A stretch of DNA of 64,000 bases. Origin: Kribbella sp. VKM Ac-2568. Lineage in GTDB: Bacteria > Actinomycetota > Actinomycetes > Propionibacteriales > Kribbellaceae. The translations under genes were made by a program, and so were the position numbers. The DNA lies in assembly GCF_004345365.1 (NCBI RefSeq), contig NZ_SLVF01000010.1, positions 248,001 to 312,000 of the forward strand, written 5' to 3'. How positions within the stretch are numbered: position 1 is the stretch's first letter; every line of letters starts with the position of its first letter. This document shows, piece after piece, positions 14,660-19,933 of the stretch. Below the pieces are notes generated by a model. It did not search any database. It was not told the DNA's origin and was given only the letters and a program-made list of their open reading frames with translations.

Positions 14660-15499
14660 ATGCCTGAGTCGCTGGAGGATCTGGTCGAGCTGCTCGACCT
14701 GGAGATGATCGACGTCGACCTGTTCCGTGGCCGGCAACCGCAGACCTCCGCACAGCGGGTGTTCGGCGGGCAGGTGCTCGGCCAGGCGCTGGTGGCGGCC
14801 AGCCGGACGGTAGATCCCGAGCGGATCGTGCACTCGCTGCACGGGTACTTCCTGCGCCCAGGCGACACCTCGGTACCGATCGTCTACAAGCCCGAGCTGA
14901 TCCGCGACGGGCGGTCGTTCAGCAGCCGACGGGTGGTCGCGTCGCAGAACGGCAAGACCATCTTCTACATGTCCGCCTCCTACCAGGTGCCGGAGCCAGG
15001 GCTGGACCACTCGGACCCGATGCCGACGGACCTCCTCCCGCCGGACGAGGCGCCGACCCTCGCGTCGGTCTTCGAGGCAGCGTCAGGGCGCAAGGCCGAG
15101 GACTGGAACAAGGAGTGGGCCGCGCTCGACGTACGGCTGGCCGGGCTCACCGGGCGGCAGTTCTGGATCCGGGCCGCAGGCAAGCTTCCGGACGAGCCGG
15201 CCTTGCACGCTTGCGTTCTGGCCTATGCGAGTGACCTGACGTTGCTCGGGGCAAGCTTGCTCCCGCACGGCATCATCATCGGCGACCGCCGCATCCAGCC
15301 GGCCTCCATCGACCACGCCCTCTGGTTCCACCGCGACTTCCGCGCCGACGAGTGGCTCCTGTACGACCAGGTCTCCCCGTCCGCCTCGGGCGCCCGAGGA
15401 TTCGCTACCGGCCGCCTCTTCAGCCAAGACGGCCGCTTGGTCGCCTCAGTAGCCCAGGAAGGCCTTATCCGCCCCGTCGGCCTGGACCTGGACGACTAG
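14660..15499 (+). CDS. tesB: Acyl-CoA thioesterase II
   Basis: The 279-residue double-hotdog thioesterase hydrolyses acyl-CoA to free acid and CoA. Diagnostic motifs are RVFGGQVLGQALVAASRTV, the LHGYFLRPGD segment of hotdog 1, SIDHALWFHRDFRADEWLLY of hotdog 2 and the terminal GLIRP. The catalytic Asp/Thr/Gln triad region lies at FGGQ, at ASIDHALW and near FATGRLFSQDGRLVASVAQE. Full length for the family. It stands alone, with its own promoter region containing a palindrome. Confidence 0.93.
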   Translation: MPESLEDLVELLDLEMIDVDLFRGRQPQTSAQRVFGGQVLGQALVAASRTVDPERIVHSLHGYFLRPGDTSVPIVYKPELIRDGRSFSSRRVVASQNGKTIFYMSASYQVPEPGLDHSDPMPTDLLPPDEAPTLASVFEAASGRKAEDWNKEWAALDVRLAGLTGRQFWIRAAGKLPDEPALHACVLAYASDLTLLGASLLPHGIIIGDRRIQPASIDHALWFHRDFRADEWLLYDQVSPSASGARGFATGRLFSQDGRLVASVAQEGLIRPVGLDLDD

Positions 15500-15543
15500 T
15501 TCCAGACCCGCGAAACGCCTCGCCTGATCCACCCACCGCCGCA

Positions 15544-15570
15544 TGTCACAGGTGGCCGTGCTGTCTCGTC
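15544..15570 (+). promoter_or_regulatory. ECF41-type promoter upstream of the SDR gene
   Basis: TGTCACA (15544-15550), 16 bases, then CGTC (15567-15570). This matches the published ECF41 consensus TGTCACA-N16-CGTC. The site is 57 bp upstream of the SDR start, and the ECF41 sigma gene lies two genes downstream. Confidence 0.85.
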
Positions 15571-15627
15571 TCGGGTGTCGAAGACAGGTTCTGAGAAGAA
15601 CACACCACCTGATAGCAAGGACTGGTC

Positions 15628-16389
15628 ATGAGTGAGAACACCCACCAGAAGATCGCGCTGGTCACCGGGGCAAACAAGGGGATCGGCCGTGGGGCTGCCG
15701 AGCAACTCGCTGAGCTGGGGATGACGGTTCTGATCGGCGCCAGGGACCCGCGGCGCGGCGAGGAGGCTGCCGCGGCGCTGCGCGCGGCCGGCGACGTGCA
15801 CGCGGTCACCCTGGACGTCACCGACCCGTCCACCGTGCAGGAGGCTGCGAAGCAGGTCGAGGAGCGCTTCGGCCACCTCGACGTGCTGATCAACAACGCC
15901 GGCATCACCGGTTCCGGGCAGGTCTCGCCCCAGGACGCCTACGATCAGGTCCCCAGCTCCGTCGACCTGGACATGGTCCGGGCGGTGTTCGAGACCAACG
16001 TCTTCGGCGTGATCGCGGTGACCAATGCCATGTTGCCGCTGCTGCGGCGGTCGCCGGCGCCGCGCATCGTCAACGTCAGCAGTCATGCCGCGTCGCTGAC
16101 CATCACCAGCGACCCGGACGGCCCGATGGCATCACTGCTGTCGTCGGCCGCGTATTCGCCGTCCAAGACCGCGCTGAGCGCGCTGACCGTGCAGTACGCC
16201 AACGAGCTGCGGAAGGACGGCATCCTCGTCAACGCCGTCGCCCCCGGCTACGTCGACACGGACAGCAACAACCACACCGGGTTCCTCACGGTCGCGCAGG
16301 GCGCCGAGGTCTTGGTGCGCCTGGCCACACTCGGCGCTGATGGACCGACCGCCGGGTTCTTCAGCGCGGAGGGCCCCCTGCCCTGGTGA
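15628..16389 (+). CDS. SDR family NAD(P)-dependent oxidoreductase
   Basis: This is a classical 253-residue short-chain dehydrogenase/reductase. The cofactor motif is TGANKGIGRG, followed by the NNAG motif in DVLINNAGITG, the catalytic Ser near VNVSSHAA and YxxxK in YSPSKTALS, then the VAPGYVDTD segment. The TGANKGIG form suggests relatives of carbonyl reductases; the substrate is unknown. A ribosome-binding site (AAGGA) lies before the ATG. It is preceded by an ECF41 promoter and belongs to the COE-type (oxidoreductase/epimerase) genes that accompany ECF41 sigma factors. Confidence 0.92.
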   Translation: MSENTHQKIALVTGANKGIGRGAAEQLAELGMTVLIGARDPRRGEEAAAALRAAGDVHAVTLDVTDPSTVQEAAKQVEERFGHLDVLINNAGITGSGQVSPQDAYDQVPSSVDLDMVRAVFETNVFGVIAVTNAMLPLLRRSPAPRIVNVSSHAASLTITSDPDGPMASLLSSAAYSPSKTALSALTVQYANELRKDGILVNAVAPGYVDTDSNNHTGFLTVAQGAEVLVRLATLGADGPTAGFFSAEGPLPW

Positions 16390-16401
16390 TGCCGGCCCTG
16401 A

Positions 16402-16429
16402 TGTCACAGCTGGGAGGGGCTGTCTCGTC
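16402..16429 (+). promoter_or_regulatory. Second ECF41-type promoter, upstream of the epimerase-sigma operon
   Basis: TGTCACA (16402-16408), 17 bases, then CGTC (16426-16429). The match continues in the 5'-UTR: GCTGTCTCGTCTCGGG and TTCTGAGA are shared with the promoter at 15544, so the two regions look duplicated. It should drive the epimerase and, by coupling, the sigma factor itself. Confidence 0.85.
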
Positions 16430-16471
16430 TCGGGTTCGAAGGCAGTTCTGAGATCTGGAAAGGTGATGGTC

Positions 16472-17404
16472 ATGCGGGTGTTCGTGGCTGGTGGGTCCGG
16501 GGTTCTGGGGCGGCGGCTGGTGCCCCAGCTGGTTGCCCGTGGCCACCAGGTGACGGCAACGACGACGAGCTCGGCCAAGCTGGGTCTGGTGGAGCAGCTG
16601 GGCGCCGAGGCGGTCGTGATGGATGGGCTGGATGCGGCATCGGTCGGTGAGGCGGTGGCCAAGGCCCGGCCAGAGGTGATCGTGCACCAGATGACCGCGA
16701 TCTCCGTGGCGCATGCCGGCAAGCCCGACATGAAGCACATGGATCAGTGGTTCGCCGGCACCAACCGGCTGCGCCTCGAGGGGACGGACCACCTGCTGGC
16801 CGCCGCCGAGGCGACCGGCGTGACCAACTTCGTCGCGCAGAGCTACGCCGCTTGGAACGGCATCCGTGAGGGCGGCTGGGTGAAGACCGAGCAGGACCCG
16901 ACCGACCCGATGACGGGGACGCCGGCGGAACCCGGGATGAAGGCGATCGGTCACGTCGAGGACGTGGTCCTGAAGGCCGGCGGCGCAGTACTGCGGTACG
17001 GCTGGTTCTACGGGCCAGGCGCCACCGACGACCTGGTCGAGCCCGTGCGCAAGCGGCAGTTCCCGATTGTCGGGGGCGGCGCCGGATACTGCTCATGGGT
17101 GCATCTCGACGACGCGGCGAGCGCTACCGTTCTGGCCGTGGAGAAGGAGGCCAGGGGTGTGTTCAACATCGTCGACGATGAACCGGCCCCGGCCGACGAG
17201 TGGCTGCCCTACCTGGCCGCATGCGCGGGAGCGAGGCGGCCGATGCGGGTCCCCACCTGGCTAGCGCGACCGCTGGCCGGGGAAGTGGCGGTGACGATGA
17301 TGACCGAGGGGCGTGGCTTCTCGAACGCCAAAGCCAAGCGGGAGCTCGGCTGGGAGCTGCAGTACCCGTCGTGGCGGCAGGGATTCAAGGCTGAGCTGGC
17401 ATGA
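16472..17404 (+). CDS. NAD(P)-dependent epimerase/oxidoreductase (extended SDR, ECF41-associated)
   Basis: The Rossmann motif is FVAGGSGVLGRRLVPQL. Later features of extended SDRs follow: VIVHQMTAIS, LRYGWFYGPGA, SWVHLDDAASATVLAVE and GVFNIVDDEPAP. Length (310 residues) is normal. Two ATGs are possible, 16466 and 16472; 16472 is better spaced from GGAAAGG. The stop codon overlaps the sigma factor ATG (ATGA), so the two are translationally coupled. The family is the E (epimerase) class of COE genes controlled by ECF41 factors; the substrate is unknown. Confidence 0.9.
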   Translation: MRVFVAGGSGVLGRRLVPQLVARGHQVTATTTSSAKLGLVEQLGAEAVVMDGLDAASVGEAVAKARPEVIVHQMTAISVAHAGKPDMKHMDQWFAGTNRLRLEGTDHLLAAAEATGVTNFVAQSYAAWNGIREGGWVKTEQDPTDPMTGTPAEPGMKAIGHVEDVVLKAGGAVLRYGWFYGPGATDDLVEPVRKRQFPIVGGGAGYCSWVHLDDAASATVLAVEKEARGVFNIVDDEPAPADEWLPYLAACAGARRPMRVPTWLARPLAGEVAVTMMTEGRGFSNAKAKRELGWELQYPSWRQGFKAELA

Positions 17405-18330
17405 CCCGCACCGAGGAGTTCGAAGACCTGCGGCCGCTGCTCTTCTCGATCGCCTACCGGATCCTGGGCAGTGTGGCCGAGGCCGAAGACGCGGTCCAGG
17501 AGACCTGGCTGCGCTACGAGGCCTCCCCGACACAGCCCGCCTCGGCCAAAGCCTTTCTGTCGGCCGTGGTGACCAGAATCTCGATCGATGTACTGCGGTC
17601 GGCCCGCGTCCGGCGGGAGGAGTACGTCGGGCCGTGGTTCCCGGAGCCGCTGCTGACCGACCCCTACCAGGACCCGGAGCGTTCGGCGGAGCTGGCCGAC
17701 TCGCTGTCGATGGCGGCCCTGTTGTTGCTGGAGCGGCTCAGCCCGCTCGAACGGGCGGTCTTCGTATTGCGGGAGGTGTTCGGTTTCGGCTTCGGTGAGG
17801 TCGCGTCGGCGGTGGGGCGCTCTGAGGCGGCGTGCCGCCAGCTCGCCGTACGAGCGCGCCGACACATGGACGCGGGCCGACCCCGGTTCGATGCCGACCG
17901 AACCGAGCGCGAGGAGCTCGCCGGGCGATTCCTCGACGCCTTCCGGGACGGGGATGTCGACGGGCTGACCGAGTTGCTGGCCGCCGACGTACAGCTGGTC
18001 GCCGACGGTGGCGGCAAGGCCCCGCAATGGGCCGACCGCTTCAGCGGTACCGAAAGCGTGGCCCGGGTGCTCGCCAGGCTCGTCTCGCTGTTCGTTCGGA
18101 TCGGAGCGAAGGTGGAGCCGCACGAGGTGAACGGCCAGCCGGGCGCGATCTTCCGCGACCGGGACGGCAAGATCCTCAGCACCTGGGCGCTCGACGTCCT
18201 CGACGGACAGATCCAGACGATCCGCACAGTCAACAACCCCGACAAGCTGGGCCATGTGGGTCCCGGGGCGGACCCCTGGGCGGCCCTCCGCGAAGCGAAC
18301 CAGGCCCGCCGTCCCACAGACCCGGAATAA
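17401..18330 (+). CDS. sigJ: ECF41-group RNA polymerase sigma factor (SigJ-like)
   Basis: Residues ~5-75 are sigma-70 region 2 (LLFSIAYRILGSVAEAEDAV, then ETWLRYE). Residues ~105-165 are region 4 with the HTH FVLREVFGFGFGEVASAVGR. The C-terminal ~120 residues are the fused SnoaL-like domain that replaces an anti-sigma factor in ECF41 proteins. Its signature DGGGK occurs in LVADGGGKAPQWADRF, and the NPDKL-type end motif is present. In this group the C-terminal domain modulates promoter recognition. The two upstream genes carry matching ECF41 promoters, so the operon is probably autoregulated. Confidence 0.94.
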   Translation: MTRTEEFEDLRPLLFSIAYRILGSVAEAEDAVQETWLRYEASPTQPASAKAFLSAVVTRISIDVLRSARVRREEYVGPWFPEPLLTDPYQDPERSAELADSLSMAALLLLERLSPLERAVFVLREVFGFGFGEVASAVGRSEAACRQLAVRARRHMDAGRPRFDADRTEREELAGRFLDAFRDGDVDGLTELLAADVQLVADGGGKAPQWADRFSGTESVARVLARLVSLFVRIGAKVEPHEVNGQPGAIFRDRDGKILSTWALDVLDGQIQTIRTVNNPDKLGHVGPGADPWAALREANQARRPTDPE

Positions 18331-18348
18331 ATCGGTTCCCTCGTCTGC

Positions 18349-18354
18349 TAACTT
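18349..18354 (+). promoter_or_regulatory. Putative -10 element of the thrS leader transcript
   Basis: TAACTT lies eight bases before the leader-peptide ATG at 18362. A start at about 18361-18362 would make the leader ORF leaderless, a common arrangement in actinobacteria. No clear -35 box is seen. Confidence 0.4.
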
Positions 18355-18361
18355 ATTCATC

Positions 18362-18415
18362 ATGATCAAGCGCGTAGTGGTGACGACGACGTCGGAGTTT
18401 GTCCCGGCGCGCTGA
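18362..18415 (+). CDS. Threonine-rich leader peptide (attenuator)
   Basis: This 17-residue ORF encodes MIKRVVVTTTSEFVPAR and contains three consecutive ACG threonine codons at 18383-18391. It ends 15 bases before a perfect 14-bp hairpin and 88 bases before a threonyl-tRNA synthetase gene. The layout is that of a classical leader peptide whose translation senses charged tRNA-Thr: stalling at the Thr run would disfavour the downstream terminator. It is far below normal gene length and would be missed by gene callers. The assignment is an inference from position, codon content and complementarity. Confidence 0.7.
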   Translation: MIKRVVVTTTSEFVPAR

Positions 18416-18462
18416 CAGCTGACTGTTGATCGAAGCCCCGGGGCGAGTGCCCCGGGGCTTCG
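18369..18462 (+). promoter_or_regulatory. Attenuator: alternative pairings ending in a terminator hairpin
   Basis: Terminator: 18431-18444 pairs perfectly with 18449-18462 (14 bp, loop GAGT). Leader pairing 1:2: AGCGCG (18369-18374) with CGCGCT (18408-18413), supported by GATCA / TGATC outside it, enclosing the Thr codons. Possible antiterminator 2:3: GUCCCGG (18401-18407) with CCGGGGC (18438-18444), seven pairs including one G-U. A ribosome paused on the Thr codons would block 1:2 and free segment 2 to disrupt the terminator. Confidence 0.65.
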
Positions 18463-18502
18463 TCGTGTGGGCACTCGTCTCGACCATCTGAGGAGTGTTC
18501 AC

Positions 18503-19933
18503 ATGTACGACCATCGCAAGCTCGGCCGGGAGCTCGGCCTGTTCGACTCGGACCCGTTGATCGGTGCCGGTCTTCCGTACTGGCTGCCTGCTGGTGCGGC
18601 GATCCGGCAGGCGATCGAGCGGTACATCGTCGACGTCGAACGACGAGCCGGCTACCAGCAGGTGTATTCACCCGTGCTCGGCAAGCGCGAGCTCTACGAG
18701 ATCTCCGGCCACTGGGCGAAGTACAACGAGGATATGTATCCGCCCATGGACGTCGGGGGAGAGCAGGTGGTGCTGCGGCCGAGCCTGTGTCCGCACCACG
18801 CGCTGATGTTCCGATCGCGGGCGCACAGCTATCGCGAACTGCCGCTGCGGATGTCCGAGCTCGGCGGGATGTACCGCTCGGAGCTGTCCGGTGTTCTCGG
18901 TGGGTTGACCAGAGTTCGGGCGATCCAGCTCAACGACGGGCACATCTTCTGCAGCCTGGACCAGGTTGCCGAAGAGGCTGGTGCGGCGCTCGCGTTGATC
19001 AACCAGGCCTATCGCGATCTGGGTATCAGCGCCTCCCGCTATCTGTTGTCGCTGCCTGCCGAGGACGCGAAGTTCGGCGATCCGGCCAGCAAGTACGTCG
19101 GGGACGCCGAGAGCTGGGAGCGAGCCTCCAGCCTGCTGAGGGATGTCCTCGACGGTGCGGGAATCGCGTATGAGGAAGCGCCGGGGGAGGCCGCGTTCTA
19201 CGGACCGAAGATCGACATCCAGGTCGAGGACTCGGCCGGTCGCGAGTCCAGTCTGTCGACCATTCAGGTGGACTTCCACCAGCCGGCCGCGTTCGGGCTC
19301 GAGTTCATGGGTGCCGATGGCAACAAGCATCGCCCGGTGATGGTGCACCGCGCGATCGTCGGCAGCATCGAGCGCGCCGTCGCCCAGTTGATCGAAGTAC
19401 ACGGCGGCGCGTTCCCGTCCTGGCTCGCCCCGGTCCAGCTCGTCGTACTCCCGATCTCTGACAAGGAGGAGGAAGCAGCCGCCAAGGTTCTCCGGCAGGC
19501 GGTTGACCTCGGTCTTCGAGCAGAGATCGCGTACGCCGAGGAGGGCAGCCTGGGCGCGCGGATTCGCCAGAACCGGCTGGTCCCGCATCTGGCGGTCATC
19601 GGTCCACGCGAGGCTGCTGCCGGCGAGATCGCCATCCGCGACCGTGACGGAAGCCAGCACCCCGCGGCACCCGCGGCCGCAGTACTGCGAGATCTCGCGG
19701 CGAGCGCTGATCCGCTGCGGAGGGGTGAACCTCCACGCCATCAATTGCCCGCGCCCAGCCCGGGGCCGAGCGTGCCGCAGCCCGGGGAGGCCGCGATTGA
19801 TGGCCTGGACGTCCGGTCAGCGGGGCTGGAGTTGGCCGATGAGGTGGGTGACGGTGTGGTCGTCGTTGTAGAGCGCGAAGTCCACGGCCTCGCCGGTCCG
19901 CTGGTTGCCGAACTGGACCCGCGACGGGAGTAG
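18503..19933 (+). CDS. thrS: Threonyl-tRNA synthetase, short form lacking TGS and editing domains
   Basis: The protein starts at the catalytic class II core. Zinc ligands typical of ThrRS are present: Cys in LRPSLCPHH, His in IQLNDGHIFCS and His in VMVHRAIVGSIER. Class II motif 2 lies around GGMYRSELSGVLGGLTRVRA. The anticodon-binding domain follows (WLAPVQLVVLPISD to RDRDGSQH). The usual N-terminal TGS and editing domains (~240 residues) are missing. GAGGAG precedes ATG 18503. The C-terminus runs ~65 residues beyond the family end, and the last 117 bp overlap the convergent MaoC gene, suggesting loss of the original stop. It is preceded by a Thr-codon attenuator. Likely an accessory or resistance-type ThrRS. 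Confidence 0.88.
   Translation: MYDHRKLGRELGLFDSDPLIGAGLPYWLPAGAAIRQAIERYIVDVERRAGYQQVYSPVLGKRELYEISGHWAKYNEDMYPPMDVGGEQVVLRPSLCPHHALMFRSRAHSYRELPLRMSELGGMYRSELSGVLGGLTRVRAIQLNDGHIFCSLDQVAEEAGAALALINQAYRDLGISASRYLLSLPAEDAKFGDPASKYVGDAESWERASSLLRDVLDGAGIAYEEAPGEAAFYGPKIDIQVEDSAGRESSLSTIQVDFHQPAAFGLEFMGADGNKHRPVMVHRAIVGSIERAVAQLIEVHGGAFPSWLAPVQLVVLPISDKEEEAAAKVLRQAVDLGLRAEIAYAEEGSLGARIRQNRLVPHLAVIGPREAAAGEIAIRDRDGSQHPAAPAAAVLRDLAASADPLRRGEPPRHQLPAPSPGPSVPQPGEAAIDGLDVRSAGLELADEVGDGVVVVVEREVHGLAGPLVAELDPRRE

Follow-up and report, generated by a model that had tools for sequence, protein, structure and literature searches.

Positions 15500-18335 of the window (the whole 64,000-nucleotide stretch of DNA from the soil bacterium Kribbella sp. 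VKM Ac-2568 analysed here) hold an SDR gene, an epimerase gene and the gene of an ECF41 sigma factor, with matching promoters, P1 and P2, in front of the two enzyme genes. Judging from the gene order and the promoter motifs, we are fairly confident that this is an autoregulated ECF41 module, probably acquired horizontally, whose sigma factor would drive both P1 (SDR) and P2 (epimerase and sigma factor). The two matching promoters at an ECF41 module were the central observation of the original prediction and are confirmed, and the module illustrates a known regulator family well; the interpretation that came with the observation is partly supported. The extra bases that the two promoters share past the motif are mostly an extended promoter, TGTCACA-N10/11-CTGTCTCGTCTCGGG, which is found clade-wide, and relatives of the module exchange enzymes while this promoter stays constant. 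The features are the following.

15544-15570, plus strand: P1, TGTCACA-N16-CGTC before the SDR gene; the same element occurs in related loci
15561-15575, plus strand: extended -10 word of P1, CTGTCTCGTCTCGGG
15628-16389, plus strand: SDR-family oxidoreductase, 253 amino acids (Pfam adh_short, 157 bits, cutoff 26.6)
16402-16429, plus strand: P2, TGTCACA-N17-CGTC before the epimerase-sigma pair; the same element occurs in related loci
16420-16434, plus strand: extended -10 word of P2, CTGTCTCGTCTCGGG
16472-17404, plus strand: Epimerase/NAD(P)-binding family protein, 310 amino acids from the start at 16472 (Pfam Epimerase, 53.6 bits, cutoff 20.9)
17401-18330, plus strand: ECF41/SigJ-type sigma factor, 309 amino acids, with regions 2 and 4 and a SnoaL-like tail
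15500-18335: probable inserted module, ends approximate, between tesB (end 15499) and the leader of a ThrRS-like gene

The sigma factor, its partner genes and their promoters

The sigma protein matches the NCBIfam model SigX4 (367.4 bits, cutoff 323.25) and the SigJ model PRK09636 (325.9 bits, cutoff 271), in both cases over the full length. Regions 2 and 4 are present (Pfam Sigma70_r2, 46.7 bits, and Sigma70_r4_2, 45.0 bits, both over cutoff) and are followed by a C-terminal extension of the SnoaL type, about 150 residues long, in which SnoaL_2 scores 26.5 bits on residues 176-250, 0.5 below the Pfam cutoff of 27. DGGGK at residue 202 and NPDKL at residue 279, both in the extension, are motifs of the ECF41 group. 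These two are not spelled out in the text of Wecke 2012 (PMC3426412); WLPEP is given there as the ECF41 linker motif, and WFPEP at residue 79 of our protein is one residue off it. The ECF41 sigma factor with SnoaL-like tail and DGGGK, coupled to an epimerase, stands as originally described.

The partner beside the sigma gene, where ECF41 loci carry a C-, O- or E-class gene, is the epimerase (PF01370, above cutoff), and its stop and the sigma start share an ATGA overlap (GCATGACC). Such an arrangement of enzyme and then sigma factor, with a promoter before the enzyme, was listed for 97 of 107 such ECF41 loci (Table 4 of PMC3426412). The module had also been described as having both O and E type genes, of which the E type is found in the epimerase. 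The label O is loose, because the O class of Wecke 2012 comprises FMN, flavodoxin, pyridine-nucleotide, FAD and similar domains, classical SDRs being absent from it (PMC3426412). None of the domains listed for the class (FMN, flavodoxin, pyridine-nucleotide, FAD, amino oxidase or similar) is among the Pfam matches of the SDR, which are adh_short, adh_short_C2, KR, Epimerase and NAD_binding_10 and no others; with 31.7 bits it also exceeds the PF01370 cutoff of 20.9. NCBIfam suggested no substrate for either enzyme, no model being above cutoff among the 25 matches listed of 226 for the SDR and among all 15 for the epimerase. In particular, the epimerase does not qualify as AvaA7 (NF058621, 3-diazoavenalumate denitrifying reductase), with 232.7 bits against a cutoff of 400.

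Both promoters agree with the ECF41 target consensus of TGTCACA, 16 ± 1 nucleotides and CGTC (PMC3426412), the spacer being N16 in P1 and N17 in P2. The P2 motif starts 12 bp 3' of the SDR stop, and CGTC is separated from the start codon by 57 nt for the SDR and by 42 nt for the epimerase (start at 16472; an automated frame choice put it at an earlier in-frame GTG, 33 nt from CGTC). P1 and P2 are the only matches to TGTCACAN{15,18}CGTC in the window, where the chance mean is 0.22 and two of 100 shuffles reach two matches. The exact 15-mer CTGTCTCGTCTCGGG occurs twice in the 8.9 Mb genome, both times at this locus; one or two mismatches add 14 genome sites, and the reversed control gives 19 in all. 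No housekeeping-type promoter for the sigma gene was found by a consensus scan of 15400-18600.

The extended promoter and the leaders in related loci

The related actinobacterial loci comprised 20 stretches from relatives and, from named genomes, the 80 best of 519 loci. Because L130 and L073 are one and the same locus, L130 was removed before the tree and the counts were made, leaving 100 loci (the window, the 20 stretches and 79 others). A site with at most four mismatches in the 15-mer is present in 85 of these, and two or more in 11; the 96 sites have a spacer of 16 in 70 cases and of 17 in 26. At least one site with at most six mismatches was found in 72 of the 80 named-genome loci, while base-shuffled loci gave, in five rounds, no site with at most five mismatches and three with six (here, as with the leaders and the complementarity discussed below, the shuffled controls preserve base composition only). 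Four loci (L083, L131, L132 and L141) carry an SDR subtype with only 8-9 nt between CGTC and ATG, so that the message may be leaderless.

The search was extended to 38 congeneric genomes. With TGTCACN-N9-11-TGTCTCGTCTC, 13 sites were obtained in 11 of the genomes and none in the reversed control, and 10 of these 11 have an orthologous sigma gene no more than about 2 kb from the site; in G005 the site precedes an epimerase fragment, with a partial sigma match some 4 kb away. A looser pattern with spacers 16 and 17 gave 29 sites in 17 of the 38 genomes (control, 0), 17 of them at orthologous loci including that of G005, seven at another ECF41 clade and five without an ECF41 gene in the 3-kb locus. 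The extended tag makes target finding clean in the genus, as the empty reversed control over 38 genomes shows. As a mark private to the clade it serves only in part, because a second ECF41 clade has CTGTCTCGTC next to its genes as well. Seven congeners (L200, L204, L206, L211, L213, L221 and L224) have another ECF41 gene by a CTGTCTCGTCCGTG-type promoter, and the next frame at these loci, where read, encodes a small hydrophobic protein of about 115-125 amino acids. A literature search that took in PMC3426412, PMC8999054, PMC11256431 and PMC9205884 brought up no account of the extended promoter, the exchange of partners behind it or this particular module; part of the extension may be visible in the published sequence logo.

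The original prediction drew attention to about 25 bp that the two leaders share beyond the promoters and ascribed them to duplication of a promoter-leader cassette. The upstream stretches of the SDR and epimerase genes do have an exact 17-mer in common, GCTGTCTCGTCTCGGGT, and past the 15-mer the next 25 nt of the two leaders agree at 76%, a value that none of 1000 shuffles reaches (mean 0.50, maximum 0.72). Most of the sharing, however, is the extended promoter seen in the 85 loci. What is more, the SDR leader of the window is 84% like the SDR leaders of L123 (Nonomuraea dietziae) and L071, and its epimerase leader is 80% like that of L074. As the 15-mer is kept across the clade and each leader is closer to those of other loci than to its neighbour, a recent duplication within this lineage is very improbable and is disfavoured here. 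The two leaders likely have a common origin that is older than this genome, and an old duplication of the cassette may still have taken place.

It is also improbable that the bases shared beyond the -10 form a regulatory element of their own, whether a dyad CTGTC...GACAG or an RNA structure. Words like GAAGACAG (at least 7 of 8 bases) are found in 15 of 42 epimerase leaders and 5 of 11 SDR leaders, where 1.2 and 0.2 are expected, and the complement of CTGTC is commoner than in 300 shuffles in both kinds of leader. However, shared descent alone can account for the GAAGACAG-like words, and the complementarity is not above shuffles in the leaders of carboxymuconolactone decarboxylase (CMD) genes (reached by 44/300 shuffles), of directly placed sigma genes (215/300), of DoxX genes (289/300) or of NAD(P)-binding genes (71/300). 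An RNA hairpin was rejected because folding of the leader RNAs was predicted to be no better than that of shuffled sequences (z 0.74 and 0.84); the dyad, which exceeds shuffles in the epimerase and SDR leaders alone, is kept as a weak rival.

Partner exchange, insertion site and paralogues

The genes behind the 96 sites, as sorted by script, are 42 epimerases, 15 CMD, 13 SDR, seven sigma, six DoxX-type and five NAD(P)-binding genes, three more in a cluster partly read from DoxX loci and five singletons. These clusters rest on a mechanical choice of reading frame: the sigma-class site at L134 really has an epimerase in between, and the singleton L079 is an SDR read in the wrong frame. One member each was confirmed by Pfam as Epimerase, adh_short, DoxX_2, NAD_binding_10, FAD_binding_4 and CMD. 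The positions of the partner genes vary as well, being upstream, divergent or convergent. When the adjoining genes are placed as labels on a quick tree of the 100 sigma proteins ('none' where no reference family was found next to the sigma gene), at least 20 changes are needed, against a mean of 42.1 for shuffled labels, none of 200 being as low. The adjoining gene thus tracks the sigma tree in part, yet it has changed often. The sigma factor of the window itself groups with SDR-linked sigma factors despite its adjoining epimerase (forks holding it have 85-91% SH-aLRT, none starred).

Remnants of exchanged genes were also detected. Pieces of epimerase precede the sigma gene in seven of the 45 loci without an adjoining epimerase, and the same patterns, which were drawn up after some remnants had been seen by eye, follow it in none of the 45. 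The nearest relative, L071, still has the two ends of the epimerase, combined in a single short open frame, the stop of which overlaps the start region of the sigma gene. It also retains both promoter regions, the first with a longer spacer; most of the epimerase has been deleted here and a short in-frame remnant left. L158 has a similar remnant. L123 retains the epimerase, and the TGTCACA before it is gone. A complete epimerase together with an SDR of this type was seen in the window, in L123 and, in divergent form, in L161. Two loci, L132 and L137, have two tandem promoter-DoxX units separated by epimerase fragments, which looks like a duplication of the unit.

In this actinobacterial clade the promoter may work as an address tag that is kept while unrelated genes are recruited, lost and re-ordered around the sigma factor, the unit moving from genome to genome as a compact islet; the window would then hold a rarely kept intermediate with two tagged enzymes, and the SDR-only form of its closest relatives may stem from loss of the epimerase. 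We regard this picture, taken as a whole, as evenly balanced between right and wrong. A fixed tag with many alternative partners offers a route to what the partners share, and hence to what the sigma factor senses.

The ThrRS-like gene 3' of the module has a relative in all 24 other congeneric genomes. In 17 of these the tesB start lies 989-1063 bp before it, while the distance in the window is 3843 bp. The difference matches the module size of about 2836 bp, and the module resembles a 2.84 kb insert that separates tesB from the ThrRS-like gene. The sigma factor is 88% identical to that of G052, from another family, 86% to that of Nocardia amamiensis among the matches listed, and at most 84% to those of congeners; being closer to other families than to congeners, it suggests that the module was acquired by horizontal transfer. 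The synthetase is 71-82% identical to those of congeners and 55-56% to those of three searched genomes of the genus of G052. Flanking DNA (about 1.2 kb on each side, compared by blastn, which can miss distant flanks) is shared among 21 loci in groups of 2, 2 and 5, and 12 loci share none with the others at the cutoffs applied. Of 72,556 plasmid records, 21 carry relatives of the sigma factor (72-80% identity); several of the 21 are very large replicons, one of 11.85 Mb. No repeat pair of at least 14 nt that could mark mobile-element ends was found at the two module ends. The 8-mer CAGACCCG lies near both ends (15503-15510 and 18317-18324, the second within the last sigma codons) and could be chance or a trace of insertion. 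Downstream, at 18363-18414, a 17-codon frame, MIKRVVVTTTSEFVPAR, with three consecutive threonine codons is followed by a GC-rich hairpin sequence, before the ThrRS-like gene at 18503-19930. Similar TTT leader frames occur in 22 of 24 congeners (none in L246, only other frames in L247), and the leader and hairpin look like threonine attenuation.

Several observations weigh against the reading of an acquired module with an extended promoter of its own. Fifteen of the 100 related loci have no site at the limit of four mismatches (L077, L078, L089, L122, L127, L128, L145, L151, L155, L165, L167, L175, L180, L181 and L193), although some of them hold weaker sites. The scan demands TGTCAC and so misses CGTCACA before the L161 epimerase; it also misses the first promoter of L071 with its longer spacer. 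The promoter flanks are not wholly private to this sigma factor, since CTGTCTCGTC is also found by the other ECF41 clade (seven of the 29 looser sites), whose sigma factors are 43-46% identical. In one of the 24 congeners tesB lies farther from the synthetase, and six have no tesB within 1.5 kb of it, which makes the region variable in any case. The identities are single-gene comparisons, and for the genus of G052 the synthetase search covered three genomes other than G052 itself. Finally, the bare motif, TGTCACAN{14,18}CGTC, is at background genome-wide, with 11 sites in 8.9 Mb and 11 in the reversed control, so it says little at genome scale and was dropped as a target finder.

Five of these 11 bare-motif sites nevertheless adjoin ECF41 genes, two here and three at other sigma matches, which raises the question of whether P1 and P2 are read by other ECF41 sigma factors, the locus being part of a cross-talk network and not a closed unit. 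We consider this doubtful, but a serious possibility. The genome has 18 further ECF41-like loci (E <= 4.9e-35), and at three of them TGTCACA-N16-CGTC precedes the sigma match, by 31 bp at C8:170843, by 58 bp at C3:712784 and by 88 bp at C10:212108. CTGTCTYGTC recurs at C8:407936, a looser third site, about 2.9 kb from another ECF41-like gene. On the other hand, the sites of the paralogues differ around the -10 (cgatCGTC, for example), and the exact 15-mer is confined to this locus. The strict matches fit the self-contained regulon of the original prediction; with the further loci and the looser third site, self-containment is likely, not proven. Paralogues in the same genome with other -10 bases allow a direct test of how similar sigma factors avoid cross-talk. 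The site at C8:407936 (L203, in G000) and L216 (in G001), two of the five looser sites that have no ECF41 gene in the 3-kb locus, are CTGTCTTGTC-type sites with TGTCACA before genes with similar predicted proteins, which we take to resemble an NADH-dehydrogenase-type oxidoreductase; they are a candidate further ECF41 target.

Proposed mechanism and comparison with known systems

We know of no signal for any ECF41 sigma factor. In the mechanism that we propose, the SnoaL-like tail would probably restrain its own sigma factor until a small molecule released the restraint. The released sigma factor would guide RNA polymerase to P1 (SDR) and P2 (epimerase and sigma factor), raising its own level together with those of two NAD(P)-dependent enzymes. 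The presumed substrates of these enzymes are the inducing compound or products derived from it. Through the ATGA overlap, translation of the sigma factor is probably coupled to that of the epimerase. The constant part is the promoter extended to CTGTCTCGTCTCGGG around the -10, and the genes behind it are exchangeable. In published work, sigma factors of two species activated ECF41 promoters, and the tail was mainly inhibitory (PMC3426412).

The ECF41 loci of Bacillus licheniformis and Rhodobacter sphaeroides (PMC3426412) have in common a C-terminal extension and the lack of an adjoining anti-sigma gene, and their target, as here, is a partner gene with a promoter of the TGTCACA-n16-CGTC type. 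They have one carboxymuconolactone decarboxylase as target, whereas the module has two Rossmann-fold genes, with a promoter for each enzyme gene and a longer conserved -10 word. Mycobacterium tuberculosis SigJ (solved chain 5xe7_A), compared by sequence alone, belongs to the same family (residues 4-283 matched, E 1.5e-50). Closest is L071 of G052, from another family, with the nearest sigma factor (88%), an SDR 89% identical and two promoter regions like those of the window; unlike the window, it has lost most of the epimerase and has the longer spacer in the first promoter. L123 of Nonomuraea dietziae has SDR, epimerase and sigma factor in the same order and a promoter before the SDR, as in the window, whereas before its epimerase the -10 part stays and TGTCACA has been lost.

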